A DNA stretch of 64,000 bases from Salinimicrobium tongyeongense (GTDB lineage: Bacteria > Bacteroidota > Bacteroidia > Flavobacteriales > Flavobacteriaceae): contig NZ_CP069620.1 in the NCBI RefSeq assembly GCF_026109735.1, forward strand, positions 1,550,001 to 1,614,000, given 5' to 3'. The position numbers and the translations under genes are program-made. Positions within the stretch are counted from its first letter, which is position 1. Each line of letters opens with the position of its first letter. Of this stretch, positions 287-62,554 are shown one piece after another. Under the pieces are notes generated by a model. It was not told the origin of the DNA and did no database searches. It was given only the letters and a program-made list of their open reading frames with translations.

Positions 287-994
287 ATGAGCCAACAAAC
301 TACTTCCAAAATAGCACTTGTAACCGGCGGGAGTAGTGGTATAGGCAAAGCAATAGCCGAAAAACTGAGTAAAGAAGGAGTAAAGGTGGTTGTAGCTGAT
401 CTTCAAAAAGGGCATTTTAAAGAGGAAAACCTTCACTTTCACAAGTGCGACGTAAGAAATGCCCAGGAGATTGATGAGCTGTATGCCTGGACCACAGAGC
501 ATGTGGGCCATCCCGATTACCTCATAATAAACGCCGGGCAGGGCATTAAGGAAAAACTTTCAGAAGGGGATCCCGAAAAATGGAAAGGAGTGCTCGAGAC
601 CAACGTTATGGGGCCTCTAAGATGCATTCGGGCATTTACCCCGCACATGATCTCTCAAAAAGGGGGAAATGTGGTATTCATTTCTTCAGTTTCGGCCTCC
701 CAGCCCCACCCCTATGGAGGAATTTATGCAGCTTCAAAATCGGCCCTGGAGGTAATTGCCGAAACCTTAAGGCTGGAGTCGCTTCCGCACATCAACGTTA
801 CGGTGGTAAGCCCCGGCATAGTAGATACTGCCTTTTTTGAGCATGAAATCTCCGGAAATGCTTCCGTGGAAGAAATGGGTATGGGTGCCATAGACCCTAA
901 AGAAATTGCAGAAGACGTGTGGTATGCACTCAACAAGAAAAAAGGCACCAGCATAAATAAGATCACAACCAGACCATTATTGCAAAACTTCTAA
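287..994 (+). CDS. SDR-family NAD(P)-dependent oxidoreductase
   Basis: A classical short-chain dehydrogenase of 235 residues, likely oxidising or reducing a hydroxyl on a sugar or small molecule in the cytoplasm. The TGGSSGIG cofactor loop is at residues 13-20, NAG at 82-84, the catalytic serine at about 133-134, and the Tyr-x3-Lys pair at Y147 and K151. Length is normal for the family. It is the first gene of a ten-gene plus-strand run, with the next gene 18 bases downstream. ATG at 287 precedes a good N-terminal beta strand. Residues around 39-45 lie over a 14/17 match to the dispersed palindrome (404-420). The substrate cannot be read from the sequence; the neighbours suggest a sugar or polyol. 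Confidence 0.9.
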   Translation: MSQQTTSKIALVTGGSSGIGKAIAEKLSKEGVKVVVADLQKGHFKEENLHFHKCDVRNAQEIDELYAWTTEHVGHPDYLIINAGQGIKEKLSEGDPEKWKGVLETNVMGPLRCIRAFTPHMISQKGGNVVFISSVSASQPHPYGGIYAASKSALEVIAETLRLESLPHINVTVVSPGIVDTAFFEHEISGNASVEEMGMGAIDPKEIAEDVWYALNKKKGTSINKITTRPLLQNF

Positions 995-1012
995 CCAACC
1001 AAAACCAATCAA

Positions 1013-2131
1013 ATGCAGAAGAAAGTATTAATTACCGGAGGAGCAGGATTTATAGGGTCTCATCTTGCAGATGAGCTTCTAAACAAAGGATATAAAGTAC
1101 GGGCTCTGGATAACCTCTCAGAGCAGGTGCATGGGGAGAATGCCTCACGCCCCGAATATCTCAACCCAAATGTGGAACTGCAAATTGGAGATGTGCGCGA
1201 TAAAGCAGCTGTTGAAAAGGCTCTTGAAGGCGTAGATGCCGTGGTACATCTGGCTGCCATGGTAGGGGTTGGCCAAAGTATGTACCAGATCAAAGACTAC
1301 ACCCATGTTAATAACCTGGGCACGGCAGTACTCATGGAGGCGTTAATGGACAGGCCGGTGGAAAAATTAGTTACCGCATCGAGCATGAGCATTTACGGGG
1401 AAGGCCTTTACCTCAATGAGGCAGGTGAGAAAAAAATGGACTGTGAACGCAAACTTGGCGACCTTAAAAAAGGACAGTGGGAAATGTATGACAGCCAGGG
1501 AAAAGAACTCAAACCTGTACCGACTCCCGAGTCTAAAACCCCTAATCTTTCTTCGGTTTATGCCCTTTCAAAATATGACCAGGAACGGCTAAGCCTCATT
1601 ACCGGCAAAGCCTACAATATTCCCACCACAGCTTTGCGGTTCTTTAATGTCTACGGAACCCGCCAGGCACTGTCAAACCCTTATACCGGCGTGCTTGCAA
1701 TTTTCGCTTCCCGCCTGCTCAACAACAATGCCCCCATGATCTTCGAGGACGGGAAACAGAAGCGGGACTTTATTCATGTAAAAGACGTGGCCCGTGCCAT
1801 TAGGCTGGCCATGGAAAAACCTGAAGCCAACGGGGAAGTATTTAACGTGGGTAGCGGTAACCAGTACAGCATACTTGAAATTGCCGATAAACTGGCCGAA
1901 GTAATGGGCAAAGAAAATATTAAAGCTGAAGTCACCGGAAAATACAGGGTGGGAGATATAAGGCATTGCTTTGCAGATACCACCAAAACAAAAGAGAAAC
2001 TGGGATTCACTCCCGAAGTGAAATTTGAAGATGGATTGTACGAACTGGCCGAATGGCTTAAAACCCAAATAGCCACAGACAATGTGAGCAGGGCCAGCAG
2101 CGAATTGTCTTCCAGAGGTTTAACCGTGTAA
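1013..2131 (+). CDS. NAD-dependent epimerase/dehydratase (extended SDR)
   Basis: An extended SDR of the nucleotide-sugar type, 372 residues. TGGAGFIG (8-15) binds NAD, SS near 124-125 supplies the catalytic Ser, and Y183 with K187 form the Tyr-x3-Lys pair. The SSMSIYGEG segment and the long insert at about 132-175 before the active-site Tyr resemble dTDP-L-rhamnose 4-epimerase-like proteins rather than GalE; this is from memory of the family. It probably interconverts an NDP-sugar in the cytoplasm. It is second in the cluster, with 10 bases to the GH-epimerase fusion. The C-terminal 15 residues are low-complexity and Ser-rich and are unlikely to be catalytic. Confidence 0.85.
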   Translation: MQKKVLITGGAGFIGSHLADELLNKGYKVRALDNLSEQVHGENASRPEYLNPNVELQIGDVRDKAAVEKALEGVDAVVHLAAMVGVGQSMYQIKDYTHVNNLGTAVLMEALMDRPVEKLVTASSMSIYGEGLYLNEAGEKKMDCERKLGDLKKGQWEMYDSQGKELKPVPTPESKTPNLSSVYALSKYDQERLSLITGKAYNIPTTALRFFNVYGTRQALSNPYTGVLAIFASRLLNNNAPMIFEDGKQKRDFIHVKDVARAIRLAMEKPEANGEVFNVGSGNQYSILEIADKLAEVMGKENIKAEVTGKYRVGDIRHCFADTTKTKEKLGFTPEVKFEDGLYELAEWLKTQIATDNVSRASSELSSRGLTV

Positions 2132-2141
2132 AAGAACAGCT

Positions 2142-4172
2142 ATGAACGTAAAGAAGAATCTAGATAATAATACTCCTTCCCTTGGCATTCTGGAATGGTT
2201 TAGACCCGGAGAATACGAGGAGGTCAAAGCTGCAATAGAAGATTTCAAAAAACTGGGGATCAGGCACCTGCGCACAGGAATTTCGTGGGCCGACTGGTAT
2301 GTGGAAGGTACCGCTGAATGGTACGACTGGCTCTTTGCCGAACTTTCTCCCCATGTCGAGATCCTGCCCTGTTTTCTCTACACGCCGCCCTCAATAGGTG
2401 AAATGCCGAAGACTTCGGCCCCACCTAAAGATCTGAAAGCCTACGCCGATTTTATTGACACCATGATCACCCGCTACGGAAACTACTTTGAGTGGGTTGA
2501 ACTCTGGAACGAGCCCAACAACAAAGTAGAATATGACTTCACCCTCGATTATTCGTGGAACAAGTTTTCTACCATGATAGGCATGGCGGCCCACTGGGCT
2601 CAAAAAAGGGGAAAAAAGACCCTGCTTGGCGGGATGAGCCCCATAGATCCAAACTGGATGCAAATGATGATAGAGCAAAAAGTGCTCGATCATATAGACG
2701 CGGTGGGAATTCACGGTTTTCCACATGTATTTGACCAGCAATGGAAAGGCTGGGACGTAAACATAAGCTGCATCAGGGAAGTGATGGAAAAGTTCGGGTA
2801 CCACAAAGAGATATGGATTTCTGAAGTTGGCTTCTCCACCTGGCAAAATGATGAAGTAAAGCAGTTTCAGGAATTTAAAAATGTGCTTAATGCCGATGCC
2901 GACAGGATTTACTGGTACTCGTTAAAAGATCTCGACCCTAAAAATTCGACTGTGGGTGGTTTTCATCTCGATGAGAGGGAATATCACTTCGGGTTAAAGA
3001 AAACCGACGGCACTAAAAAGCTGCTCTATAAACTCCTGGAGAAAAATGGAATAGAGAAGGTAAGGGAGCAGGATTACATTCAGAAACAATACCGGGTCAA
3101 TACCAGTCAAAAATATACGCTCATCACGGGAGGTGCCGGTTTTATTGGCACCAATCTCGCTTCAAGGTTCCTTTCGGAAGGAAAAAAAGTGATGATCTAT
3201 GACAGCCTGTTTAGGGATGGCGTTGAAGAAAACCTTCAATGGCTGCAAAAGGAATATGGAGATAAGCTCATTATCCAGATCTCAGACATTAATGAAACAC
3301 GAATCCTTCAGGAGAGCGTGAACAACGCTTCCGAAGTTTTCCACCTCTGCGCACAGGTTGCAGTGACCTCATCGGTGACCAATCCTGTTCACGATTTCAA
3401 TGTAAACCTCAGCGGCACCTTCCACCTTCTGGAAGCCATCAGAAAAAGCAAACATCAGCCGCCATTGATCTTTACCTCTACCAACAAGGTTTACGGAAAC
3501 CTTCAGGATGTAGAAATGGTTGAAAATGAGACCAGGTTCTATCCTGCCGATGCAAAAATGAAAGAATACGGCATTAACGAAAAGATCCCGCTCGACTTCC
3601 ATAGCCCTTATGGTTGCTCTAAAGGCGCGGCCGACCAGTACATTCTTGATTACTCAAGAACTTACGGCCTAAAGACGGCGGTATTTAGAATGAGCTGCAT
3701 TTACGGGCCACACCAGTTTGGTACCGAAGACCAGGGCTGGGTGGCACATTTTTTAATTAGTGCGCTTGAAGATAAGCCTATCACCATCTACGGAAACGGC
3801 AAGCAGGTGCGCGACATTCTCTTTGTAGAAGACCTGATTGATGCCTTTATGCTGGCTCATAAGAACATCGATAAACTGGCCGGGCAGGTCTTCAACATTG
3901 GAGGCGGGCCACAAAATACCGTTAGTCTCCTGGAAATCCTAGACACGATACGGGAAAAGGCCGGAAAAGAAATGAACGTGAGCTTTGAAGACTGGCGCAC
4001 GGGAGATCAGTTCTACTATGTATCCAACACCGGCAAATTTAAAGAAGCCACAGGCTGGCAGCCCAGATATTCTGTAGATAAAGGGGTTGAGCACCTCCTG
4101 AAATGGCTTTGTGAAAACCGAAATATTGAATTACCCGCAAATTTAAATCCTACAAAAGAAATCGCCATATGA
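2142..4172 (+). CDS. fusion: clan-A glycoside hydrolase + CDP-paratose 2-epimerase-like domain
   Basis: A 676-residue two-domain protein. Residues 10-305 look like a clan GH-A (GH39/GH5-like) TIM barrel: WNEP places the acid/base at E124 and WISEVGF places the nucleophile at E228. Residues 325-665 are an extended SDR with TGGAGFIG at 329-336, STNKVYG at 445-451 and Tyr490-x3-Lys494. The STNKVYG and SKGAADQY segments match what I remember of CDP-paratose (tyvelose) 2-epimerases. There is no signal peptide, so the hydrolase half is cytoplasmic, which is unusual for GH enzymes. The following gene overlaps by the ATGA motif at 4169-4172. A glycosidase joined to an epimerase suggests coupled handling of one sugar, or that the GH domain works as a transglycosidase; both are inference. 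Confidence 0.85.
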   Translation: MNVKKNLDNNTPSLGILEWFRPGEYEEVKAAIEDFKKLGIRHLRTGISWADWYVEGTAEWYDWLFAELSPHVEILPCFLYTPPSIGEMPKTSAPPKDLKAYADFIDTMITRYGNYFEWVELWNEPNNKVEYDFTLDYSWNKFSTMIGMAAHWAQKRGKKTLLGGMSPIDPNWMQMMIEQKVLDHIDAVGIHGFPHVFDQQWKGWDVNISCIREVMEKFGYHKEIWISEVGFSTWQNDEVKQFQEFKNVLNADADRIYWYSLKDLDPKNSTVGGFHLDEREYHFGLKKTDGTKKLLYKLLEKNGIEKVREQDYIQKQYRVNTSQKYTLITGGAGFIGTNLASRFLSEGKKVMIYDSLFRDGVEENLQWLQKEYGDKLIIQISDINETRILQESVNNASEVFHLCAQVAVTSSVTNPVHDFNVNLSGTFHLLEAIRKSKHQPPLIFTSTNKVYGNLQDVEMVENETRFYPADAKMKEYGINEKIPLDFHSPYGCSKGAADQYILDYSRTYGLKTAVFRMSCIYGPHQFGTEDQGWVAHFLISALEDKPITIYGNGKQVRDILFVEDLIDAFMLAHKNIDKLAGQVFNIGGGPQNTVSLLEILDTIREKAGKEMNVSFEDWRTGDQFYYVSNTGKFKEATGWQPRYSVDKGVEHLLKWLCENRNIELPANLNPTKEIAI

Positions 4173-5179
4173 GTTCACCGCAGGCCGTACAGGAAAAAGC
4201 ACCTGTAAAAGTAGAAACTGCAATTGCAAAAGCCGCAATTTTAAAAGCCCCGCAAAAAGTTGCTGTTAAAGAAATCAACTTACCCGAACCCGCCCGGGGC
4301 GAAATCCGCATCAAGCTGGAAGGCAGCGGCGTATGCGCTTCAAACATTCCGGTTTGGGAAGGCCGCGACTGGTTCAACTATCCCGTAAGCCCGGGAGAAC
4401 CGGGTCACGAAGGCTGGGGCGTTGTAGATGCCGTGGGAGAAGGCGTGACAAAATTTGAAAAGGGCGACAGGGTAACTGCCCTCACTTACAACGCCTATGC
4501 CACGCACGATATCGCAAAAGAAGAGAGCACAGTAAAACTGCCTGCTTCTTTAGAGGGAAAGCCTTTCCCCGGGGAACCTTTGGGTTGTGCCATGAACATC
4601 TTTGAACGCAGCGATATCCAAAAAGGCCAAAAAGTTGCTGTTGTTGGGAGCGGATTTTTAGGACTCCTGCTCATTCAGCTGGCAAAATCGGCCGGAGCCG
4701 AAGTCATTGCTGTTTCCAGAAGGGAATTCTCCCTGGAAGCCGCCAAAAAAGCAGGAGCCGACCATTTGATCCAGATGGATGACCACTATAAGATCATTGA
4801 AAAAGTAAAGGAATTAACCGGAGAAAACTTTTGTGATCGGGTCATAGAATGCACCGGAAAAGAATGGCCGCTCAACCTGTCTATCGAGCTTACCGGCGAA
4901 AGGGGTAAACTCATCGTTGCCGGTTTCCATCAGGACGGGATGCGCAGCGTGAACGTGCAAATGCTCAACTGGCGCGGCATAGATATGATAAGTGCCCACG
5001 AGAGAGATCCGCAGCAATATATAAAAGGGATCAAAAATGCCATAAAAGCCGTGGAAGAAGGTAAGATGGACCCCTTCCCGCTCTTTACCCACAAATTCCC
5101 TCTTGAAGAAATGGAAAAAGCTTACCAGCATTTAACCCAAAGGCCAGACGGATTTATAAAAGCTCTAATCGTTAACTAG
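4169..5179 (+). CDS. zinc-binding alcohol dehydrogenase (MDR family)
   Basis: A medium-chain dehydrogenase of 336 residues. The GroES-like half carries catalytic zinc ligands C56 (GVCASN) and H80-E81 (GHEGWG). The Rossmann half has GSGFLG at about 160-165. The Cys-rich structural-zinc lobe of classical ADHs is absent, as in shorter MDR proteins. The first 20 residues are extra compared with a usual family start, but the ATG overlaps the previous stop (ATGA), which supports translational coupling. It probably oxidises or reduces a sugar or polyol hydroxyl with NAD(P). The Gfo/Idh/MocA gene starts one base after its stop, so the two oxidoreductases may act in sequence. Confidence 0.87.
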   Translation: MSSPQAVQEKAPVKVETAIAKAAILKAPQKVAVKEINLPEPARGEIRIKLEGSGVCASNIPVWEGRDWFNYPVSPGEPGHEGWGVVDAVGEGVTKFEKGDRVTALTYNAYATHDIAKEESTVKLPASLEGKPFPGEPLGCAMNIFERSDIQKGQKVAVVGSGFLGLLLIQLAKSAGAEVIAVSRREFSLEAAKKAGADHLIQMDDHYKIIEKVKELTGENFCDRVIECTGKEWPLNLSIELTGERGKLIVAGFHQDGMRSVNVQMLNWRGIDMISAHERDPQQYIKGIKNAIKAVEEGKMDPFPLFTHKFPLEEMEKAYQHLTQRPDGFIKALIVN

Positions 5180-5180
5180 C

Positions 5181-6194
5181 ATGATCGCAACTCAACCCAC
5201 CAAAAAAGAATTATCATTAGGTTTTCTGGGCGTTGGCTGGATAGGCCGCAATCGTATGGAAGCCATTCTCAATAATACCAACGCAAAAGCTTCGGCGATC
5301 ACAGAACCCGATTCCGAAAATTGCGACGCTGCCCAAAAGAGTGCCAAAAATGCCATTTTAAAGACTTCTTCTGAAGCCCTTTTTGCTGAAAAGGACCTCG
5401 ACGGTATTGTGATTGCCACCCCAAGTGCCATGCACGCCCGGCAAAGCGTGGAGGCTTTAAAAGCCGGAAAAGCTGTTTTTTGCCAGAAGCCACTCGGCCG
5501 TACCGCCAAAGAAGTAGAACAGGTGGTCGAAGCCTCCCGCGAGGCAAACAAGCTGCTTTCCGTAGATCTTTCCTACCGCTACACCAAAGCCTTTAAAGCG
5601 GTTTACGACACCATCCAAAAAGGGGAAATAGGAGACATCTTTGCCGTAGACCTCATCTTTCACAACGCCTACGGGCCAGATAAGGAATGGTTCTACGACA
5701 TTAAGCGATCTGGCGGCGGCTGCGTGATGGATTTGGGCATTCACCTGGTAGATCTCGCCCTGTGGAGCCTTGATTTTCCTGAAATCAAAGATGTACAGAG
5801 CCGCTTATACCACAAAGGACAAAAACTGACCTCTTTTGAAGAGCACGTTGAAGATTTTGCCAGTGTGGCAATGACTTCAGAAAAAGACCAGGTTATAAAC
5901 CTCGAATGTTCCTGGCATGTTTCTGCCGGAAAAGATGCCATTATAGAAGCCACTTTCTACGGCACCAAAGGAGGTGCTTCCTTCAAAAATATCAACGGCT
6001 CTTTCTACGATTTTAAAGCCGAAAAGTACCACGGCACCCAAACCGAAACTCTTGTAACACCACCCGATGAGTGGAGTGGCCGTGCCGGAGTGGTATGGGT
6101 AGAAAACCTTCTGCAAAATGACACTTTTGACGAGAGAACTGCCACTCAATTTATAAAAACAGCCCAGGTAATAGACCGAATTTATGGAAGATAA
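5181..6194 (+). CDS. Gfo/Idh/MocA family oxidoreductase
   Basis: A 337-residue NAD(P)-dependent sugar oxidoreductase. The N-terminal Rossmann domain has GFLGVGWIG at 14-22. The usual EKP signature reads QKP with K103, keeping the catalytic lysine. The C-terminal domain shows GGGCVMDLGIHLVD with D184, H187 and D191, the usual substrate-binding and catalytic set. Residues KNAIL at 56-60 are encoded by a 15/17 copy of the dispersed palindrome (5345-5361). It likely acts on a sugar or inositol-like ring with the neighbouring dehydrogenases. The next gene begins within a few bases of its stop. Confidence 0.88.
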   Translation: MIATQPTKKELSLGFLGVGWIGRNRMEAILNNTNAKASAITEPDSENCDAAQKSAKNAILKTSSEALFAEKDLDGIVIATPSAMHARQSVEALKAGKAVFCQKPLGRTAKEVEQVVEASREANKLLSVDLSYRYTKAFKAVYDTIQKGEIGDIFAVDLIFHNAYGPDKEWFYDIKRSGGGCVMDLGIHLVDLALWSLDFPEIKDVQSRLYHKGQKLTSFEEHVEDFASVAMTSEKDQVINLECSWHVSAGKDAIIEATFYGTKGGASFKNINGSFYDFKAEKYHGTQTETLVTPPDEWSGRAGVVWVENLLQNDTFDERTATQFIKTAQVIDRIYGR

Positions 6195-6198
6195 GCAA

Positions 6199-7290
6199 AT
6201 GAAGATCCTAATGACTACCGACACGGTAGGCGGGGTTTGGGTGTATTCCCTCGAACTCTGCAAGGCACTGGCACAGTATAATGTGCAGGTGCACTTGGCA
6301 GCCATGGGCGCCTGGCCTTCGCCGGCACAACAGGTGGAAGCCGAAAATATCCCCAACCTCACTTTTTACAAGAGTGACTTTAAGCTCGAGTGGATGGAAG
6401 ACCCCTGGGAAGACGTAGAGCGGTCGCGCAAATGGATCAACTGTATTTATCAAACCATACAGCCCGATATAGTTCACCTAAACAACTACGCCCAGGTAGA
6501 AGAGGAATGGACAGCGCCGGTGGTAACAATCTTCCACTCCTGTGTGCAAACCTGGTGGCAGGCAGTAAAGGGCATAAAAGCACCTCATGAATGGGATCAT
6601 TACACGCAAACCGTTAAGAAGTCGCTGGAGGCTTCAAACATGGTCATTGCTCCCACCAAAGCAATTCTTGACAAGGCACAGGAGATACACGGCTTTAGTT
6701 CTCAATCAAAAGTGATCAATAATGGCCGTGTTTTTCCTTCGGAAGTTGAAGTGCCAAAAGAAAAATTCATTTTGTGCATGGGCAGGATGTGGGATGAAGC
6801 CAAAAACCTGCCTTTGCTGTCTAACATAGCCGAAAGATTGCCCTGGCCGGTATATGTTGCCGGTGCAGCAGTTCACCCTGACACAGGAAAAAAATGCAGG
6901 CTCGAAAATGTCAAATTCCTCGGAAAATTAACCCCCGAAGAAGTGCAGCATTGGATGCAGCGCGCCAGCATCTTTGTGAGCCCAACCCGCTACGAGCCTT
7001 TTGGGCTGGCCATTCTTGAAGCTGCCGGAAACGGCTGTGCACTGGTATTGAGCAAGCTTGACACCCTTCAGGAATTGTGGGAAGATACTGCCCTTTTCTT
7101 TGACCCCGAAAACGAAGAAGAAGCCGAAAAGACCATCGTCCGGTTATTGGAAAGCCCCGAATTTTTGAAGGAGCTTTCAGCAAAAGCAAGAGAACGGGCA
7201 AAACAGTATTCCGCAGAAAAAATGGGGGCCGTCTATAACGACCTCTATCGCGACATACTTGAAAAAGAATATAAAATAATGAGCCTATGA
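6199..7290 (+). CDS. GT4-family glycosyltransferase
   Basis: A GT-B retaining glycosyltransferase of 363 residues from the chosen ATG at 6199, where the protein reads MKILMTTDT. An in-frame ATG at 6184 would add five residues and overlap the previous gene. The C-terminal half has the E-x7-E motif in EPFGLAILE, and conserved Arg and Lys before it (MGRMWDEAKN) for the nucleotide-sugar phosphates. TVGGVWVYS near the N-terminus is the glycine loop. There is no membrane segment, so it is cytosolic. It ends with an ATGA overlap into the next glycosyltransferase and is the only clear GT4 of the cluster; the other three are CgeB-like. Confidence 0.87.
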   Translation: MKILMTTDTVGGVWVYSLELCKALAQYNVQVHLAAMGAWPSPAQQVEAENIPNLTFYKSDFKLEWMEDPWEDVERSRKWINCIYQTIQPDIVHLNNYAQVEEEWTAPVVTIFHSCVQTWWQAVKGIKAPHEWDHYTQTVKKSLEASNMVIAPTKAILDKAQEIHGFSSQSKVINNGRVFPSEVEVPKEKFILCMGRMWDEAKNLPLLSNIAERLPWPVYVAGAAVHPDTGKKCRLENVKFLGKLTPEEVQHWMQRASIFVSPTRYEPFGLAILEAAGNGCALVLSKLDTLQELWEDTALFFDPENEEEAEKTIVRLLESPEFLKELSAKARERAKQYSAEKMGAVYNDLYRDILEKEYKIMSL

Positions 7291-8423
7291 AAATAGTGAT
7301 GTTTTACCATTCCCTCTACTCTGACTGGAATCACGGGAATGCGCATTTTTTACGCGGAATTGTAAAGGAACTTCAAAAACGCGGGCACGATGTAGATGTC
7401 TATGAACCCGAAGGTGGCTGGAGCCTGCAAAACCTGCTGAAAGATCATGGGGCCGAGCAGCTTGATGAGTTCAGGCAGTACTACCCTTCGCTCAACCCGC
7501 AGTTCTACAATCCCGAAAAAAAACTGAACTATCAAAACATACTGAGCAAAGCCGACCTTGTGATTGTTCACGAGTGGAACGAACCCGAACTTATTGCTGA
7601 AATAGGCCGGAAAAAGGAAAAATACGGCTTTAAACTGCTATTTCACGATACCCATCACCGGGCAGTTTCAGCTGAAAAAGAGATGAAAAAATTTGATTTT
7701 TCGCACTTTGACGGCGCACTTGTCTTTGGTGAGGTGATTAAAAAGATCTACGAAGAAAAGAATTGGGTAGACAGGGTTTGGACCTGGCACGAAGCAGCCG
7801 ACGCCGATTTCTTTAGCCCCAACCGCGATGAAGAAAAAGAAGGCGACCTGGTTTGGATTGGCAACTGGGGCGATGGCGAACGCACCGAAGAACTTATGGA
7901 GTTTCTCATAGGCCCCATAAAAGAGCTGAAACTTAGAGCAAAGGTCTACGGTGTGCGCTATCCCGAAAAAGCTAAAAAAGCCCTGGCCAATGCCGGCATT
8001 GAATATGGCGGTTACCTGCCAAACTACAAGGTGCCCGAAGTTTTTGCAAAATACAAGGTCACGGTACACGTGCCGCGACGGCCTTATGTTGAAATGTTGC
8101 CGGGAATTCCTACCATAAGGCCTTTTGAAGCCCTTTCCTGCGGAATTCCGCTCATTTGCTCTCCCTGGAATGATGCCGAAAACCTCTTCACTCCCGGGGA
8201 AGATTATTTGATCGCAAAAGACGGAAATGATATGGGGTACAAACTTGCCGAAGTGCTAAAGAGTCCGCACCTGGCAAAAAGCCTTTCCGATAACGGAAGA
8301 AAAACCATACTCGACAACCACACCTGCGCCCACCGGGTAACTGCTTTAGAAAACATCTTACAGGAATTAGGCCTGCCACATGAAAAGGTCTTTCCCATTC
8401 ACCACAAAACCATGCAAGCATGA
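7287..8423 (+). CDS. CgeB-like GT-B glycosyltransferase, paralogue 1
   Basis: A 378-residue protein with a Rossmann-like start (MKIVMFYHS) and a C-terminal RPFEALSCGIPLICSPW segment. That segment is typical of the glycosyl transferase group 1 domain found in CgeB-like proteins (spore maturation protein CgeB family). It shares an overall pattern with the next two genes: a SDWNHGNAHFLRGIVKEL start, an acidic central part and the same C-terminal acceptor/donor motif. ATGA overlaps at both ends indicate tight coupling. The donor and acceptor are unknown. Of the three paralogues its central region is the most divergent. Confidence 0.8.
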   Translation: MKIVMFYHSLYSDWNHGNAHFLRGIVKELQKRGHDVDVYEPEGGWSLQNLLKDHGAEQLDEFRQYYPSLNPQFYNPEKKLNYQNILSKADLVIVHEWNEPELIAEIGRKKEKYGFKLLFHDTHHRAVSAEKEMKKFDFSHFDGALVFGEVIKKIYEEKNWVDRVWTWHEAADADFFSPNRDEEKEGDLVWIGNWGDGERTEELMEFLIGPIKELKLRAKVYGVRYPEKAKKALANAGIEYGGYLPNYKVPEVFAKYKVTVHVPRRPYVEMLPGIPTIRPFEALSCGIPLICSPWNDAENLFTPGEDYLIAKDGNDMGYKLAEVLKSPHLAKSLSDNGRKTILDNHTCAHRVTALENILQELGLPHEKVFPIHHKTMQA

Positions 8424-9523
8424 AAAGAGACCTGAAAATTGCCTTTTTTGGCTCCAGTATCGTATCGGCTTACTGGAACGGTGCCGCTACTTATTACCGC
8501 GGAATTGTAAAGGCGCTCCATAAAATGGGCCACGAAGTGACATTTTACGAACCCGATATTTACGAACGCCAGAAGCACCGGGATATAGAAGACCCCGACT
8601 GGTGTAAAGTGGTGGTCTATCCTGAAGATAAAGTGAGCCTGCAGGCACTGCTAAGAGAAGCTTCGGAAGCCGATGTGATCATAAAAGCCAGTGGCGTGGG
8701 CGCATTTGATGACTTTCTTGAAGAGGCCGTAGTGCAGCTGAAGAAAGACGATAACCTCATTATCTTTTGGGATGTTGATGCCCCTGCCACGCTAGACAGG
8801 ATTGAATCAAACCCTTCCGATCCTTTTAATGCCCTTGTTCCGGAATATGATTTTGTGCTCACCTACGGGGGCGGGCAACCGGTTATTGACGCCTACGAGC
8901 GCAACGGTGCAAAGAGGTGTATCCCAATTTATAACGCTTTAGATACCGACACCCATTTTCCTGTGGAGCCCCAAAAAGAATTTCATGGTACTTTGGCCTT
9001 TTTGGGCAACCGCCTCCCCGACCGTGAAAAGCGGGTAGAAGAGTTCTTTATCAAGCCTGCGCAAAATCTCCCTGACGAGAAGTTCCTGCTTGGTGGCAGC
9101 GGCTGGGGCGATAAATCTATGCCTAAAAACATACAATACCTGGGGCATGTTTACACCAAAGATCACAACGCCTTTAACTGCACCCCAAAAGCAGTGTTGA
9201 ACATAAGCCGTGACAGTATGGCCAAGTACGGCTTTTCCCCTGCCACCCGCGTTTTTGAAGCCGCCGGTGCCGGGGCCTGTCTTATCACCGATTCCTGGAA
9301 AGGGATCGAGACCTTTTTTGAACCGGGCAAGGAGATCCTGGTAGCCAACAGCGGGGAAGAGGTAGAAATGATCCTTGCCGGCCTTACTTCAGAAAAAGCA
9401 AGGAAAATTGGCGATGCGGCCTACAAAAAAGTGCTTTCTGCCCACACCTACGAACACAGGGCCGAATTGCTGGAATCGGTTATTTCTGAGAAATTAAAAA
9501 CCGAAGCCAAACCTGTTGAATAA
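8420..9523 (+). CDS. CgeB-like GT-B glycosyltransferase, paralogue 2
   Basis: A 367-residue CgeB-like glycosyltransferase. The N-terminus (FFGSSIVSAYWNGAATYYRG) aligns by eye with the start of paralogue 3 (IGLSVTSSWGNGHATTYRAL). The C-terminal RVFEAAGAGACLITDSW holds the conserved Glu of the donor-binding loop. A Pro-Asp-rich linker (EDPDWCKVVVYP) also matches its neighbour (PAPDFCKLGLYK). No signal peptide or membrane helix is visible. It overlaps the previous gene by ATGA and ends 12 bases before the next. Tandem duplication within the operon is the simplest explanation for the similarity. Confidence 0.82.
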   Translation: MKRDLKIAFFGSSIVSAYWNGAATYYRGIVKALHKMGHEVTFYEPDIYERQKHRDIEDPDWCKVVVYPEDKVSLQALLREASEADVIIKASGVGAFDDFLEEAVVQLKKDDNLIIFWDVDAPATLDRIESNPSDPFNALVPEYDFVLTYGGGQPVIDAYERNGAKRCIPIYNALDTDTHFPVEPQKEFHGTLAFLGNRLPDREKRVEEFFIKPAQNLPDEKFLLGGSGWGDKSMPKNIQYLGHVYTKDHNAFNCTPKAVLNISRDSMAKYGFSPATRVFEAAGAGACLITDSWKGIETFFEPGKEILVANSGEEVEMILAGLTSEKARKIGDAAYKKVLSAHTYEHRAELLESVISEKLKTEAKPVE

Positions 9524-9535
9524 AAACATTAACGA

Positions 9536-10612
9536 ATGAAATTTGTAATTATAGGACTTTCGGTCACCTCATCATGGGGAAACGGGCACGCCACCACCTA
9601 CCGTGCGCTACTCAAAGAGCTCAAGGCCCTGGGGCACGACATTTTGTTCCTTGAAAAAGACGTGCCCTGGTATGCGCCCCATCGCGATATGCCAGCACCC
9701 GATTTCTGCAAACTGGGCCTCTATAAAACCAACGAGGAATTAAAATCTGAGTACAAAAAAGAAGTTGCCGAAGCCGATGTGGTCATAGTGGGTTCTTATG
9801 TACAGCAGGGCGTTGAAGTGGGCAACTGGGCCATAGAAACTGCTAACGGGGTTACCGCCTTTTACGATATTGACACACCAGTAACCTTGGCCAAACTGGA
9901 AAGGAAAGACTACGAGTATCTCGACCCCAATATCATCCAAAAATATGATCTTTATTTGTCATTTTCGGGAGGCCCGATACTGAAGCATCTCGAAGATCAC
10001 TACGGTTCTCCCATGGCCAGGGCCCTGTATTGCTCGGTAGACCCCGATCTTTACTATCCCGAAGACCGCTCTAAAGACTGGAAGCTGGGATACCTTGGCA
10101 CTTACAGCGATGACAGGCAGCCTACGGTAGAAGAATTGCTCAACAAACCTGCTGCTAATTTTCCTTCGGAAAGATTTGTGGTTGCAGGGCCGCAATACCC
10201 CGAAGATTATGCATGGGCTAAGAATGTAGAGCGCATTGACCATCTCCCGCCTGCTGAACATCGTAAGTTTTACAACTCCCAGGAATTTACCCTGAATGTC
10301 ACCCGGCAGGATATGATAAAGGCAGGTTATTCCCCCAGCGTGCGGCTGTTTGAAGCTGCCGCCTGCGGTGTGCCGATAATTTCAGATCACTGGGATGGCA
10401 TACACAGCATTTTTGAGCAGGGCACCGAGATCCTCATTGCCCGAAGCAGCGATGATGTAGAGGAATATTTCAGAAATACTTCGGAATCCAGGAGAAAAGA
10501 GATTGGCGAAAACGCCAGGCAAAAAGTCCTGAAATCTCACACTGCACGGGCGAGAGCAAAAGAATTGGTAAATTATGTGAAGGAAGTGCATCAGCCTTCA
10601 GAAAAAGTTTAA
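9536..10612 (+). CDS. CgeB-like GT-B glycosyltransferase, paralogue 3
   Basis: A 358-residue CgeB-like protein closely related in layout to the preceding gene. The N-terminal glycine-rich loop sits in SSWGNGHATTYRALLKEL. A central FYDIDTPVTLAKLE matches FWDVDAPATLDRIE of paralogue 2, and the C-terminal RLFEAAACGVPIISDHWDG carries the conserved Glu. Three such paralogues plus one GT4 suggest a glycan of several sugars, or successive additions of one sugar. It is cytosolic. The methyltransferase starts 3 bases after its stop. Confidence 0.82.
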   Translation: MKFVIIGLSVTSSWGNGHATTYRALLKELKALGHDILFLEKDVPWYAPHRDMPAPDFCKLGLYKTNEELKSEYKKEVAEADVVIVGSYVQQGVEVGNWAIETANGVTAFYDIDTPVTLAKLERKDYEYLDPNIIQKYDLYLSFSGGPILKHLEDHYGSPMARALYCSVDPDLYYPEDRSKDWKLGYLGTYSDDRQPTVEELLNKPAANFPSERFVVAGPQYPEDYAWAKNVERIDHLPPAEHRKFYNSQEFTLNVTRQDMIKAGYSPSVRLFEAAACGVPIISDHWDGIHSIFEQGTEILIARSSDDVEEYFRNTSESRRKEIGENARQKVLKSHTARARAKELVNYVKEVHQPSEKV

Positions 10613-10615
10613 AAC

Positions 10616-11410
10616 ATGTCTACACAAACTGAAGTAAAAGAACTGGAACCCTGGTTTCATAATATTCATTTACCCGATGGCACTCAAACGGCTCCCAATC
10701 ATTTTCTTGGAGACTTTCCCGGTTTTAAGTGGGAAAAGATCAGAGAGAGTATTCCGCAGGATCTTGAAGGCTGGAAGGTGCTGGATATTGGCTGCAACGC
10801 CGGGTTCTACTCGCTCGAACTGGCAAAACGTGGCGCCGATGTGCTGGCCATAGATCTTGATGAACATTACCTGAAGCAGGCAAAATGGGCAGCAAAAAAA
10901 TTTGGCCTTGACGATAAGATCAGGTTTAAACAAATGCAGGTGTATGACCTTGCCCATTCCGAAGAAAAGTTTGACCTCATCTGGTTTATGGGCGTATTTT
11001 ACCATTTGCGCTACCCTATGCTGGCCCTTGACATTTTATCTCAAAAAGTGAAAAAAATGATGGTCTTCCAAACGCTTTCCCTGCCCGGGCAGGAAGAAAT
11101 GCAAGTACCCGAAGATGTGGAATTTCACAAACGGGAGATCATGAAAGAAGATGCCTGGCCAAAAATGGCATTTATTGAGCATAAACTTGCGGGAGACCCC
11201 ACTAACTGGTGGGCTCCAAACCACCAGGGCATTATCTCGATGCTGCAAAGCTGCGGACTCAAAGTAACCGCCATGCCCGAAGATGAAACCTATGTAGCCA
11301 AAAAAGATGCCTCGCTGCACTCCAGCCTCGATACCTGGAATTATTCTGAATACCTCTCGGCAGTTGGTAAAGACTGGAAAGAAGAGGTAGATAAAAAGAC
11401 CCGAAAGTAG
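10616..11410 (+). CDS. CmoB-like SAM-dependent methyltransferase
   Basis: A 264-residue class I methyltransferase. Motif I is VLDIGCNAG at about 55-63, followed by the acidic end of strand 2 (AIDLDEHY) and a motif-IV-like LIWFMGVFYHLRYP. The start WFHNIHLPDGTQTAPNHF resembles the CmoB/Methyltransf_9 fold, and from memory the family catalogued as TIGR04290, which occurs beside glycosyltransferases in environmental bacteria. It is too short and lacks the context to be a tRNA-modifying CmoB itself. As last gene of the cluster it is a good candidate to cap or decorate the glycoside by O-methylation; this is inference. A 15/17 palindrome copy lies inside at 11160-11176. Confidence 0.83.
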   Translation: MSTQTEVKELEPWFHNIHLPDGTQTAPNHFLGDFPGFKWEKIRESIPQDLEGWKVLDIGCNAGFYSLELAKRGADVLAIDLDEHYLKQAKWAAKKFGLDDKIRFKQMQVYDLAHSEEKFDLIWFMGVFYHLRYPMLALDILSQKVKKMMVFQTLSLPGQEEMQVPEDVEFHKREIMKEDAWPKMAFIEHKLAGDPTNWWAPNHQGIISMLQSCGLKVTAMPEDETYVAKKDASLHSSLDTWNYSEYLSAVGKDWKEEVDKKTRK

Positions 11411-11468: not shown

Positions 11469-11503
11469 AAGACCTCCGAGGTTTTGAAAACCTCGAAGGT
11501 CTT
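11469..11503 (-). terminator. intrinsic terminator of the dipeptidyl peptidase gene
   Basis: AAGACCTCCGAGGTTT (11469-11484) and AAACCTCGAAGGTCTT (11488-11503) form a 16 bp stem with a 3-base loop. The single mismatch becomes a G-U pair on the minus strand, and a T-rich tract follows on that strand (A-run 11461-11467), so it chiefly serves the minus-strand peptidase. It could also stop plus-strand transcription. A related hairpin is at 18792-18834. Confidence 0.8.
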
Positions 11504-54924: not shown

Positions 54925-55968
54925 TCAGCTTCTGCCCAGGAGTTCTTTAATTTTCTCCACTACCTTTTGCGGCGGAATGCTCCTCATCACCTCCTCATAC
55001 CCCTTCGGAATGTCTTTCCCATAGATGGAGGTGGGGATGGCGGGATATTTCTGAAGGTTTGGCAGCAGGGAGTTTGTTGCGGGCTGTCGAAAAGGGGCAA
55101 ATCCGGTGTAGGGATGGGTGAGCCCCCAAATACTGATCACCGGCACGCCAAAATTGGCTGCCAGATGCCCATTCCCGCTGTCCATAGACAGCATAAGGTC
55201 AAGATTTGAGATAAGTGCCAGTTCTTCTTCAAAAGACAATTTCCCGGCTACCGAAACGGCTTTGGGAAATGTCTTTTCCCAGGCCGCCAGTTTCCCGGTT
55301 TCCTCTTTTCCTCCGCCGAACAAAAATATCTTCAAATTCTGCCCTTTTTGAAGCTCCTGCAGTACCTCTTTCATCAGATCTTCGGGGTAAGCTTTGGAAG
55401 CATGCTGGGCAAAAGGGGCTATTCCCAACCATTTTTCAGCTTTTTCACCCGTAACTGCCCTCAGGTTTTCAGTGGATTCCTGCTTTTGAAGTACCTGCAC
55501 AGCACTAATGTCTACGGGATAGCCAAGTTTATCAAAAACTTCGGCATAACGCTGCTGGGTTGCTTTAAGCTGTTTGAAGACCTTGTTATTGCTTCGGGTG
55601 AGGGCTTTTTTCTCTTTGCGGCCTTTGTCGATTTGTCGCACCGGGATGCCCTTCAGCTTAAAAAAGAATTTCAGAATATTAGATCGCAGCACATTGTGCA
55701 AATCGGCGACGGCCTCAATTTTTAGGTCCAGCAATTCCGAAGAAAGCCTTTTGAGTCCGCGTAAACCTTGGTGCCTTCCTTTTACTTCGGCTTCAAAAAC
55801 CTGAACATTGGGAAGATCTTTGAACATGGGCGTGAAAAACCTGCGGGTGAGCAGGCTAAGCTTAACATCGGGATATTTTTCAGTAAAAGCCTTTAGCACC
55901 GGCAGCATCATCGCCACATCTCCCATGGCCGAGAGGCGTATTACCAGTATGTGCCGCGGTCTTCCCAT
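54925..55968 (-). CDS. GT9-family heptosyltransferase-like glycosyltransferase
   Basis: A 347-residue GT-B protein. It begins HILVIRLSAMGDVAMMLPVL, the usual LPS-heptosyltransferase start. The C-terminal SMDSGNGHLAANFGVPVISIWGLTHP is the donor-binding motif with Asp and Gly. It probably adds a heptose-like sugar to the lipid A core. It is 9 bases after a DUF4254 gene, a pairing I recall as conserved in Bacteroidota. Confidence 0.9.
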   Translation of the reverse strand: MGRPRHILVIRLSAMGDVAMMLPVLKAFTEKYPDVKLSLLTRRFFTPMFKDLPNVQVFEAEVKGRHQGLRGLKRLSSELLDLKIEAVADLHNVLRSNILKFFFKLKGIPVRQIDKGRKEKKALTRSNNKVFKQLKATQQRYAEVFDKLGYPVDISAVQVLQKQESTENLRAVTGEKAEKWLGIAPFAQHASKAYPEDLMKEVLQELQKGQNLKIFLFGGGKEETGKLAAWEKTFPKAVSVAGKLSFEEELALISNLDLMLSMDSGNGHLAANFGVPVISIWGLTHPYTGFAPFRQPATNSLLPNLQKYPAIPTSIYGKDIPKGYEEVMRSIPPQKVVEKIKELLGRS

Positions 55969-55977
55969 CCAAAAATG

Positions 55978-56589
55978 CTATTTTTTGGCCCCTCTTAAAA
56001 CCGGGTTGAGTTCATCGTCGTTGTACATCTTCATTTGCTTGTACACCTTCATGTATTTGTCTCCTTTTGCGATATCGCCGAGTAACTGATTTATAGCCGT
56101 AGAAAGGTCTACGCGCTGCTCGAGCAAGACATCGAGCTTTGCCTGGCATTTTATCATGTGCTCCTGGCCGGCGTCAACGCGATTGGCCTCTTCGTTCATG
56201 TGGTAGATCTTGAGCGCCAGGATAGAGAGCCGGTCTATGGCCCAGGCGGGGCTTTCGGAATTGATGGTAGCGCCTTCTTTTGGTTCTACATCTTTGTATT
56301 TATCAAGAAAATAGCTGTCTATGTACTCCACCATATCGGTACGATCCTGGTTTGAAGCATCAATTTGCCTTTTGAGCTTAAGGGCGGCTACAGGATCAAT
56401 GTTTGGATCGCGAATAATATCTTCATAGTGCCACTGCACGGTATCAATCCAGCACTTGCGGTACAAAAGGTGCTCCAGCAACTCGTCTTTTTCATTGTAA
56501 GGATTGTGAAACTCCTGCCCTACAGTGTTTATTTCATGGTATTTCTCTATTACTTCCTGAAAGATCTTATTTGCTTTATCTGAAAACAT
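55978..56589 (-). CDS. DUF4254 protein
   Basis: A 203-residue mostly helical cytosolic protein, from the ATG at 56589 (MFSDKANKIFQEVIEKYHEI). It is rich in charged helices with HNPYNEKDELLEHLLYRKCWIDTVQWHYEDI, the DUF4254 signature as I recall it. A longer frame from 56745 would be a Cys-rich misreading of the gene upstream and is rejected. It is coupled to the heptosyltransferase. A helper in core-sugar assembly is possible; function unknown. Confidence 0.85.
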   Translation of the reverse strand: MFSDKANKIFQEVIEKYHEINTVGQEFHNPYNEKDELLEHLLYRKCWIDTVQWHYEDIIRDPNIDPVAALKLKRQIDASNQDRTDMVEYIDSYFLDKYKDVEPKEGATINSESPAWAIDRLSILALKIYHMNEEANRVDAGQEHMIKCQAKLDVLLEQRVDLSTAINQLLGDIAKGDKYMKVYKQMKMYNDDELNPVLRGAKK

Positions 56590-56701
56590 ATGCTGAAATT
56601 TTAGAGGTTCTTCGGAAGAAAAACCACCGATTAACAATTCTGGCAAAGGTACCGGATTTTTAGCTTTTTTAAAGGGTGTTTTTGAATCTTCTGAAGCATA
56701 G

Positions 56702-57622
56702 TTACACCAGCAGAAGCAGCACCGGAAGCAGCACAATGCAAACAAAAAGGATTTCTTTGAACCACTTATCTTTCATGCTTTGAAAATAATTGGTCACTAC
56801 TATGGCCAGCGGGGCAAAAAAGAACATCAATTCACTGCCATTTTTGGTGGGTGCCAAAACCCCTAAAGTCAAGGCCACACCTGCACAAAGCAGGATAATG
56901 AAGAGCGAAGACTTGGCGTTGGCACTTACTTTTTGAATGATCAAAACATAGAAAAACCCTGACCATAACGTAAGGGCAAACAGGAAAGCCGCAGGAATGA
57001 GGAGGCCGGGCCTGCGGTACTGTTCAAAATTGAGGTTCATGCTCTGCGACCAGTCGGCAAGGCTATAGAAAGTATCGGTGATCAAAAGATCGGCACTGGT
57101 GACAATAGAAAGCAGTGCCAGCAGCGCCACCAGGGGCACCAGCCAGTTCTTGAACCTGTGGCCCACATGCACCAGCAGCCCGAAGTACACCACGAATAAG
57201 AAAAGGATGCTCCAAAAATAGAACAGTGATGCCACCCCAATCCAGAAGGTAGCGTCAAAGATCTTTTTCACCGTTTCCCGCTGCGATTTTAGGGAAAGGA
57301 TACGACGCAGGGCAAGCAGCAAAAATAGATTTGCCACGATAACGTCGTTGTTTTGCAATGCTGCCGGGAACATGCAGAGAAAACCCGCAAACAAAATGCT
57401 CTTATAGGCATTTCGCCCCGTAAGCTCGTTTCTTCCCGAAATAAAATTGAGTATAAAAACGCTCAACACCAATACCAGGAACATTCCCACCTCCTGCCAA
57501 ATGCCCCAAAAAGCTGCCTGGAACAGGGCCTGCAGGTTGGCAAAAAGATAAAAAATAAGGATATAGATGGCCACCACAATAAAGTTAATGGGCCTGGAAT
57601 TGCTAAAAAAGCTTGTTAGCAT
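56702..57622 (-). CDS. DUF6427-like multispan membrane protein
   Basis: A 306-residue inner-membrane protein with about nine helices. The start MLTSFFSNSRPINFIVVAIY and the loop NNDVIVANLFLLLALRRI fit the flavobacterial DUF6427 family by memory. Its role is unknown. It is divergent from the small DUF6341 gene, and their promoters share a 40-base gap. Confidence 0.8.
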   Translation of the reverse strand: MLTSFFSNSRPINFIVVAIYILIFYLFANLQALFQAAFWGIWQEVGMFLVLVLSVFILNFISGRNELTGRNAYKSILFAGFLCMFPAALQNNDVIVANLFLLLALRRILSLKSQRETVKKIFDATFWIGVASLFYFWSILFLFVVYFGLLVHVGHRFKNWLVPLVALLALLSIVTSADLLITDTFYSLADWSQSMNLNFEQYRRPGLLIPAAFLFALTLWSGFFYVLIIQKVSANAKSSLFIILLCAGVALTLGVLAPTKNGSELMFFFAPLAIVVTNYFQSMKDKWFKEILFVCIVLLPVLLLLV

Positions 57623-57642
57623 TAGGGTTTTTTATATTTTTG
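57613..57642 (+). promoter_or_regulatory. promoter of the DUF6341 gene
   Basis: TTG at 57613-57615 and TATTTTTG at 57635-57642, spaced 19 bases, match the -33/-7 consensus very well. Transcription would start near 57649, 14 bases before the ATG at 57663. The -33 element overlaps the start codons of the divergent DUF6427 gene. Confidence 0.75.
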
Positions 57643-57662
57643 TGGCATTAAATATAGCTACT

Positions 57663-57893
57663 ATGAAGGATTTTTTCGAGGGGATACAGACCATTTTTGA
57701 AGATTACCTGTTTGCACCGTTCAACGAGCTGGCCAGTTTAGAACTGGATAGCTGGTGGCTGGCAAACGCTGTAAACTGGATATTTATTCTTATCGCATTT
57801 GCCGCTTTCATCTACTGGATGAAGCAGTTGAAAAAATTCAATGACCGCAACGAAGAAAAGCGCGAAACCAGCGCACATTCTTTCCTGGGCTAG
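57663..57893 (+). CDS. DUF6341-like small membrane protein
   Basis: A 76-residue protein from the ATG at 57663 (MKDFFEGIQTIFEDYLFAPF). One membrane helix lies at about 34-52 (WWLANAVNWIFILIAFAAFIYW), with a charged tail (KKFNDRNEEKRETSAH). The family name is from memory. A longer frame upstream crosses the promoter. Its stop overlaps the purD stop on the opposite strand, and its terminator lies inside purD (57924-57968). Confidence 0.82.
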   Translation: MKDFFEGIQTIFEDYLFAPFNELASLELDSWWLANAVNWIFILIAFAAFIYWMKQLKKFNDRNEEKRETSAHSFLG

Positions 57894-59161: not shown

Positions 59162-59185
59162 AGGTGTGTGTTTTCTTTCTTGGCT

Positions 59186-59217
59186 CAAAAATAAATGTTT
59201 GTAAATTGAAGCACCAA
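59186..59217 (-). promoter_or_regulatory. promoter of purD
   Basis: On the minus strand TTG (59215-59217) and TATTTTTG (59186-59193) are spaced 21 bases. Transcription would start near 59179, 18 bases before the ATG. No purine-type operator or riboswitch is seen. Confidence 0.7.
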
Positions 59218-59249
59218 CTAATTGGCGTAAAAAACACATAATTTAAATC

Positions 59250-61325: not shown

Positions 61326-61388
61326 TTTCAGGTTTTAGCCATTATAAAAAATCCTGCGAAACAGCCAAAACATAAGGCTTCAAAAATG

Positions 61389-62378
61389 CTATTTTCTAAT
61401 GTGTTTTGAGAAGTCTTTATGCTCGCTTCGATAAAGTTCTTCCTTTCCAAGATCTTTAAAGTAATTGTAAGTTTTTTTCATGCCTTCGCTACGGGACACC
61501 TTAGGCTCCCAGCCTAAAACTTCTTTAGCTTTGGAAATATCGGGCTGCCGCTGCATAGGGTCATCTTCGGGCAGGGGTTTGTAGATGATCTTTTGACTGG
61601 TACCGGTGAGTTTTATGATTTCTTCGGCAAAATCTTTTATGGTGATCTCATGCGGGTTTCCAATATTTACCGGGTAAGCATAATCACTCAGCAACAGTTT
61701 GTAAATTCCCTCTACCTGGTCATCTACATAACAGAACGACCTGGTTTGTGAACCATCCCCAAAGACGGTGAGGTCTTCGCCCCTTAACGCCTGACCAATA
61801 AAAGCGGGGATCACGCGCCCGTCATTCAGCCTCATTCGCGGCCCATAGGTATTGAAGATACGCACTATTCGGGTTTCCAGGCCGTGAAAACGATGATAGG
61901 CCATGGTGATGCTTTCCTGAAACCTTTTAGCTTCATCATACACACCGCGGGGGCCAATGGTATTCACGTTCCCGTAGTATTCTTCGGTTTGGGGGTGCAC
62001 CAGCGGGTCGCCGTAGACTTCCGAAGTAGAAGCGATAAGTATCCTCGCCTTTTTTACCATGGCGAGCCCCAAAAGGTTATGAGTTCCCAAAGAGCCCACT
62101 TTTAAGGTTTGAATGGGAATCTTGAGGTAATCTATAGGGCTGGCAGGAGAAGCGAAATGCAGGATGTAGTCGAGCTCTCCCGGCACATGCACAAAAGTGG
62201 TCACATCGTGATGGTAGAATTCAAAATTCTCGAGCCTGAAAAGGTGTTCTATATTCTTTTTGTCACCCGTGATAAGGTTGTCCATTCCAATCACGTGGTA
62301 ACCTTCATGTATGAATTTGTCACAAAGGTGGGACCCCAGAAAACCTGCAGCTCCCGTGATAAGGATTCTTTTCTTCAT
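61389..62378 (-). CDS. UDP-glucuronate decarboxylase (UDP-xylose synthase)
   Basis: Converts UDP-glucuronate to UDP-xylose. It has 329 residues with [16 protein letters not shown] for [14 protein letters not shown], the catalytic STSEVYGDP and RGVYDEAKR with Tyr-x3-Lys, and the family mark [18 protein letters not shown]. All are typical of UXS/ArnA-like decarboxylases. A TACTTTCG on the minus strand (62396-62403) may be its -7 element with one mismatch. A 14/17 palindrome copy covers the stop codon (61381-61397). Confidence 0.92.
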
Positions 62379-62554
62379 TGGTTGGTTTTACACCCGAAAG
62401 TAAGGAATTTTAGGCGATACAGGCATCCAGTATTGAGAAGCAGCAGCAGTTAGTGCCGCATTTAAGAATAATTTAACCCAATTTAAGCAAAACTAAAACT
62501 AAGCATTGGCCGCATTATGAGTAAATTAGGCTATACAACCGAAAACAACCAGCT

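Follow-up and report, generated by a model that had tools for sequence, protein, structure and literature searches.

What does a bacterium make with four glycosyltransferases (GTs), several sugar-editing enzymes, a methyltransferase and a glycosidase that are packed into one gene block with no genes for transport? This question is raised by positions 287-11410 of the window, which here means the whole 64,000-nucleotide stretch of the Salinimicrobium tongyeongense genome (3.5 Mb, a single contig) that was analysed. Our preferred answer, to which we give a probability of roughly 0.5, is a soluble pathway in the cytosol that builds a short O-methylated hetero-oligosaccharide, which is kept in the cell as a stress metabolite. 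Judged by sequence comparison, the block is one representative of a locus family that so far has no name.

A compact block without transport genes

The block comprises ten open reading frames (ORFs), all on the + strand and just where a first-pass annotation, made from the letters alone, had placed them. The tight layout described there was also confirmed. The distances to the previous gene are, in order, 18, 10, -4, 1, -11, -4, -4, 12 and 3 bases, with ATGA overlaps at three joints (4169, 7287, and 8420) and an 11-base overlap between the genes for the Gfo/Idh/MocA oxidoreductase and the GT4. No flippase, polymerase, or exporter was found in the block or in the 15 kb to the left of the window. 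None of the ten block proteins has a hydrophobic segment over the threshold of membrane helix prediction, and hence none is an initiating phosphoglycosyltransferase with helices. The first-pass annotation had pointed out that a flippase or polymerase left of base 1 would turn the block into an ordinary capsule locus; the 15 kb there encode mostly heme biosynthesis (hemA, hemC, hemE, hemF, and hemB; names assigned from sequence). A Bacteroidota-type promoter was searched for upstream of base 287 and was not found.

Domain and fold assignments

Domains of the ten proteins were assigned by Pfam and NCBIfam profile searches. These backed the proposed short-chain dehydrogenase/reductase (SDR), extended SDR, epimerase domain, zinc dehydrogenase, Gfo/Idh/MocA enzyme, GT4, and three CgeB-like GTs, the last as members of PF13524. 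The extended SDR is GalE-like by sequence comparison. The methyltransferase, previously described as CmoB-like and TIGR04290-like, proved to be a full member of TIGR04290, with only a distant likeness to CmoB. The epimerase half of the fusion protein is nearest to CDP-tyvelose 2-epimerase (1orr, 285 bits, after the match given in Table 1), an enzyme whose relatives accept nucleoside diphosphate (NDP)-hexoses other than CDP-paratose. The matches of the Gfo/Idh/MocA enzyme and the zinc dehydrogenase to inositol 2-dehydrogenase, DgpA, sorbitol dehydrogenase, and scyllo-inosose 3-dehydrogenase were all below cut-off.

No Pfam match was found for the other half of the fusion, which had been proposed to be a glycoside hydrolase. 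Its AlphaFold model (mean predicted local distance difference test score, pLDDT, 77) gave PslG, of family GH39, as the best match in the PDB (5bx9, E 4.8e-12). The model is a (beta/alpha)8 barrel in which the putative acid/base E124 and nucleophile E228 are invariant. On this model, the N-terminal half of the fusion is a predicted GH39-like (PslG-like) glycosidase. For the second CgeB-like GT (CgeB2; AlphaFold model with pLDDT 87), ManT (7qsg) of the mycobacterial 3-O-methylmannose polysaccharide (MMP) pathway was among the best PDB matches, followed by BshA and MshA. The match to ManT is at the level of fold only, with 13% identity. ManT, BshA, and MshA all use small soluble acceptors.

Conservation and distribution of the locus family

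Within Salinimicrobium the methyltransferase is nearly constant. It was found in 11 of 12 genomes of the genus, including all ten near-complete ones, with the right-flank synteny kept throughout; among named relatives, Salinimicrobium profundisediminis comes closest, its methyltransferase matching at 98%. Elsewhere in the family and phylum the methyltransferase is rare. It occurred in 3 of 199 genomes of the family sample, two of them Salinimicrobium, and in 1 of 395 genomes of the phylum sample, namely the window's own. Copies in Christiangramia, Flavobacterium, and Cytophagales have flanks that differ from those in Salinimicrobium, in agreement with horizontal transfer beyond this genus.

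A search for the ten-gene order in other genomes, as the first-pass annotation had recommended, showed that the core recurs across phyla and that the cluster is not unique to the window's genome. By tblastn of the ten proteins, the order is kept in Christiangramia, Flavobacterium, Pontibacter, Fulvivirga, and Nafulsella, and in Legionella wadsworthii without the glycosidase, while the cyanobacterium Kastovskya has a partial copy. Annotated copies were found in Xanthomonas sacchari, Sinorhizobium medicae, Azospirillum lipoferum, A. brasilense, Rhizobium, Paracoccus, Tistrella, Roseomonas, and Ensifer, and 133 records of plasmid sequences, mostly from Sinorhizobium and Rhizobium, matched the methyltransferase. 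The collinear core consists of the epimerase, the CDP-tyvelose-2-epimerase-like enzyme, the GT4, the three CgeB-like GTs, and the methyltransferase, and it spans Bacteroidota, Alphaproteobacteria, Gammaproteobacteria, and, in part, a cyanobacterium. Since this order recurs in other phyla at ~40-75% protein identity, the arrangement is more than chance. Across all 20 loci examined, each of the three CgeB genes has its own orthologue, and their order is fixed. Pairwise identities are correlated between core genes (mostly 0.8-0.9), the pattern expected of genes that travel together.

Among the annotated cluster genes of the relatives examined there was no flippase, polymerase, ABC exporter, or lipid-carrier/initiating transferase. 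This absence supports the earlier proposal of a single pathway for a methylated oligosaccharide glycoside without export machinery. A UDP-glucuronate decarboxylase gene lies inside most of the copies from outside Salinimicrobium in which that side of the locus is in view, and adjoins the methyltransferase gene in Christiangramia. From its sequence, the homologue at the far end of the window (Table 1) is likely to be the source of UDP-xylose, at a site unlinked to the block. A radical SAM gene of TIGR04295 ('B12_rSAM_oligo'), which the window copy lacks, is part of the locus in Azospirillum, Tistrella, and Kastovskya.

Two glycosidase forms and their link with inositol genes

The glycosidase occurs in two forms. 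Type A, fused to the epimerase, was found in Bacteroidota, Rhizobium etli-type rhizobia, Tistrella, and Xanthomonas. Type B, a stand-alone protein of 309-314 aa, was found in Azospirillum, Paracoccus, and Roseomonas, and the glycosidase of Sinorhizobium meliloti is likewise permuted. Type B begins with the strand that carries the acid/base residue (MIEAAKIWNEPNN) and ends with the segment that opens type A. When compared by blastp, the two types aligned as a pair of segments whose order is exchanged (102 and 70 bits); once the Azospirillum glycosidase was rotated, a single alignment of 305 columns and 158 bits was obtained. In three genera the type-B start overlaps the methyltransferase stop by four bases, indicating that the permuted start is no artefact of annotation. 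By these alignments, the two types are natural circular permutations of each other, and they would provide a clear example from nature of how a triose-phosphate isomerase (TIM)-barrel enzyme can be circularly permuted.

The loci of Azospirillum, Paracoccus, Roseomonas, S. meliloti, and Ensifer also include genes for inositol-3-phosphate synthase (INO1) and a histidine phosphatase. The pair was present in every type-B locus seen and in no type-A locus, a correlation only, drawn from a small and related sample. In Azospirillum, the INO1 is of the mycothiol type (543 bits, below the cut-off of 638) and the phosphatase is MSMEG_4193-like. No INO1 (PF07994) was found in the window's genome, and it was absent from 8 of the 11 other locus-bearing genomes searched. 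Inositol is therefore unlikely as the acceptor in the window's genome, while it is plausible where INO1 sits in the locus. The inositol-type loci also encode a conserved protein of ~580 aa that had no Pfam or NCBIfam match. On visual inspection, its sequence shows a motif like that of phosphoribosyltransferases (VDEGPGLSGSSFG), and its C-terminal half looks kinase-like.

Promoter motifs in the rhizobial copies

Upstream regions were searched for the pattern GGAAC-N15-17-[CG]GTT, which by shuffling occurs by chance in ~0.5% of promoters. Promoters like GGAAC-N16-CGTT are recognised by EcfG, the sigma factor for general stress (PMC3892343; PMC6599016). All six Rhizobiaceae copies have a site 62-165 bases ahead of the first gene of their main operon, and sites were also found upstream of three of six dehydrogenase operons and both INO1 operons tested; over the three kinds of operon, the distance to the start codon is 54-165 bases. 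The six copies are partly related, so these promoter tests are not independent. As EcfG is an alphaproteobacterial system (PMC3892343) and other alphaproteobacterial copies lack the strict site, the link to stress consists of a motif in Rhizobiaceae only. Stress genes found near copies of the locus include those for DUF1003, Ku/LigD, cold-shock, Hsp20, and YsnF proteins. The main text of the stress-response papers searched contained no clear mention of the locus.

A proposed pathway and its alternatives

A cytosolic methylated oligosaccharide fits this set of four GTs, a methyltransferase, a glycosidase, and sugar-editing enzymes, which are predicted to be soluble throughout and were not linked to export genes in any copy examined, and the combination of four different GTs with several sugar-editing enzymes suggests a short hetero-oligosaccharide rather than a homopolymer. 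In the pathway that we infer, down to its sugars, step order, acceptor, methyl position, and role, the nucleotide sugars would probably include UDP-xylose, made by the UDP-glucuronate decarboxylase, as well as sugars that the 4-epimerase-like and the 2-epimerase-like enzyme have remodelled. The GT4 and the three CgeB-type GTs would probably each add one defined residue, and the pair of zinc dehydrogenase and Gfo/Idh/MocA enzyme would probably work by way of a keto intermediate, oxidising and re-reducing either the acceptor or one of the sugar units. A methyl cap would be placed on the chain by the TIGR04290 enzyme, and trimming, recycling, or proof-reading of the chain may fall to the GH39-like domain. 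The product would stay inside the cell as a protective solute or intracellular glycan under stress. Its acceptor is likely to be inositol or inositol phosphate in many alphaproteobacteria and is probably something else in Salinimicrobium.

Several points weigh against this pathway. No product, substrate, or mutant is known for the locus, and, were the product lipid-linked, it could be handled by a flippase whose gene lies elsewhere in the genome. The match to ManT is weak evidence of function, GT-B folds being widely alike, and the glycosidase model has a mean pLDDT of just 77. The zinc dehydrogenase and Gfo/Idh/MocA genes are absent near two copies (L029 and L036). Furthermore, the strict EcfG pattern was absent in the Azospirillum, Paracoccus, Tistrella, and Roseomonas copies, and the motif evidence does not reach Salinimicrobium, a member of Bacteroidota.

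The oligosaccharide might instead be built on a lipid, as a glycolipid or on an undecaprenyl carrier, and be exported or displayed by machinery encoded elsewhere. An unlinked flippase is compatible with the lack of a linked one, and the genes for GT2, GT9, and RmlD beside the UDP-xylose synthase gene suggest that this genome makes other glycans. However, no initiating transferase, flippase, or polymerase was present in any copy seen in distant bacteria, the block proteins have no hydrophobic segment, and INO1 with the phosphatase in many copies points to a soluble acceptor. We consider a lipid-linked product unlikely.

It is doubtful, too, that the product is an inositol glycoside everywhere, with the two dehydrogenases editing inositol, the GT4 acting like MshA to glycosylate inositol (phosphate), and the phosphate being taken off by the histidine phosphatase. 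The mycothiol-type INO1 and MSMEG_4193-like phosphatase of Azospirillum, the same pair in Paracoccus, Roseomonas, S. meliloti, and Ensifer, and the EcfG-type promoters common to INO1 and the cluster all speak for it. The best sub-cut-off matches of the Gfo/Idh/MocA enzyme and the zinc dehydrogenase also include inositol 2-dehydrogenase and scyllo-inosose 3-dehydrogenase, but all dehydrogenase matches lie far below cut-off. The distribution of INO1 described above argues against this proposal, which we rate as quite unlikely in general and reject for the window's genome because INO1 is lacking there.

CgeB-type GTs also occur in spore-crust and flagellin glycosylation loci, where the targets are proteins, and the three in the block might similarly glycosylate a cytosolic or surface protein in the manner of flagellin or S-layers. 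As the copies neither contain nor adjoin a gene for a conserved acceptor protein, and small-molecule GTs are the nearest folds, protein glycosylation seems very improbable. Finally, an ordinary capsule or lipopolysaccharide side-chain module cut by the window edge, which the sugar-locus-like composition might suggest, is hardly tenable and was rejected, given heme genes to the left, a peptidase and a lipoate ligase to the right, no polymerase or flippase on either side, and an autonomous unit that recurs with other flanks in other genera.

The preferred reading, a cytosolic methylated hetero-oligosaccharide, is directly testable, because S. meliloti 1021, a strain in standard laboratory use, carries the full gene set. 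A gene order kept from rhizobial megaplasmids to marine Bacteroidota, together with stress-type promoter motifs in the nitrogen-fixing symbiont S. meliloti, suggests that an intracellular glycan has been overlooked.

Feature coordinates and neighbouring genes

The block is closed by a hairpin (Table 1), and its right flank consists of genes for a DPP4-type peptidase and a lipoate-ligase-like protein. A second sugar neighbourhood, with genes for GT9, GT2, UDP-glucuronate decarboxylase, and RmlD and interrupted by purD, occupies 54925-63918 of the window. Neighbours of other copies were also recorded. The copy on a 509 kb plasmid of X. sacchari (L027) adjoins a sigma-54-dependent regulator, and in Paracoccus (L035:18399-20836) and Ensifer (L042:3020-5477) a pyruvyl-transferase-like gene followed by an F420-hydrogenase-beta-like gene lies beside the cluster.

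Table 1 Features of the window and of other copies of the locus. L-numbers are our labels for copies from other genomes; all other positions refer to the window.
Feature	Position	Strand	Remarks
Classical SDR oxidoreductase	287..994	+	Accessory; at this place mainly in Flavobacteriia, weakly in Nafulsella
Extended SDR, GalE/UDP-hexose 4-epimerase-like	1013..2131	+	First core gene
Predicted GH39-like (PslG-fold) glycosidase domain, type A, fused to epimerase	2142..3086	+	E124 (NEPNN), E228 (WISEVG)
NDP-sugar 2-epimerase domain, CDP-tyvelose 2-epimerase-like	3087..4172	+	9rl0, 317 bits
Zinc-type polyol dehydrogenase, sorbitol/scyllo-inosose dehydrogenase-like	4169..5179	+	Below cut-off
Gfo/Idh/MocA oxidoreductase, inositol 2-dehydrogenase/DgpA-like	5181..6194	+	Below cut-off
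GT4 glycosyltransferase	6184..7290	+	
CgeB-like glycosyltransferase 1	7287..8423	+	PF13524
CgeB-like glycosyltransferase 2	8420..9523	+	PF13524; AlphaFold model near ManT, BshA, MshA
CgeB-like glycosyltransferase 3	9536..10612	+	PF13524
S-adenosylmethionine-dependent methyltransferase, TIGR04290	10616..11410	+	341.9 bits, cut-off 300
Bidirectional intrinsic-terminator-like hairpin	11469..11503	none	Closes the block
UDP-glucuronate decarboxylase (UDP-xylose synthase) homologue	61389..62378	-	81% identical to the Christiangramia one
Stand-alone glycosidases	L029:12756-13685 (Azospirillum), L035:13774-14718, L037:13732-14679, L039:13786-14712, L041 (S. meliloti)		
Protein of ~580 aa	L028:1-1749, L031:2073-3821, L037:1435-3195, L039:14757-16508, L040:1158-2894		

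Comparison with known systems

The first-pass annotation had regarded the block as a candidate for an undescribed system. This stands for the product, which was absent from the literature searched, and is qualified for the genes, as TIGR04290 (Rta_06860 methyltransferase), to which the window methyltransferase belongs, and TIGR04295 (B12_rSAM_oligo) are already hypothetical families without a product at NCBI. Neither family was mentioned, and no description of the locus or its product was found, in the literature searched, with subscription literature outside the search. The gene family has thus been noticed by curators.

The type-B INO1 and phosphatase are near the families of the first steps of mycothiol and bacillithiol synthesis (INO1, MshA, and MSMEG_4193; BshA), and the GT folds are similar. 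In contrast, the window block has no cysteine ligase or deacetylase, and its genome has no INO1. PslG of the Pseudomonas Psl locus, the best structural match, is likewise a glycosidase in a biosynthetic locus; however, the window glycosidase is fused to a nucleotide-sugar epimerase, and Psl-type polymerase and export genes are lacking.

The mycobacterial MMP cluster, meT1-mmpH-pmeT3-manT, encodes a GT-B mannosyltransferase, methyltransferases, and an endomannosidase that make and recycle a methylated glycan (PMC9883506), and mycobacterial methylated polysaccharides are located in the cytoplasm (PMC2674218). It resembles the window block in being a self-contained cluster of GT-B, methyltransferase, and glycosidase genes with no export genes and a scattered distribution, and the CgeB2 model matches its ManT by fold. 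It differs in having four genes, compared with ten in the window block, whose methyltransferase is of TIGR04290. We take MMP as the closest working analogy, a functional one that makes no claim of common descent of the clusters. Tentatively, the locus family may make widespread, horizontally spread cytosolic methylated hetero-oligosaccharides under the general stress response, as a Gram-negative counterpart of the mycobacterial polymethylated polysaccharides, in two acceptor variants: an inositol one with the permuted glycosidase, INO1, and the phosphatase, and a non-inositol one with the glycosidase-epimerase fusion.

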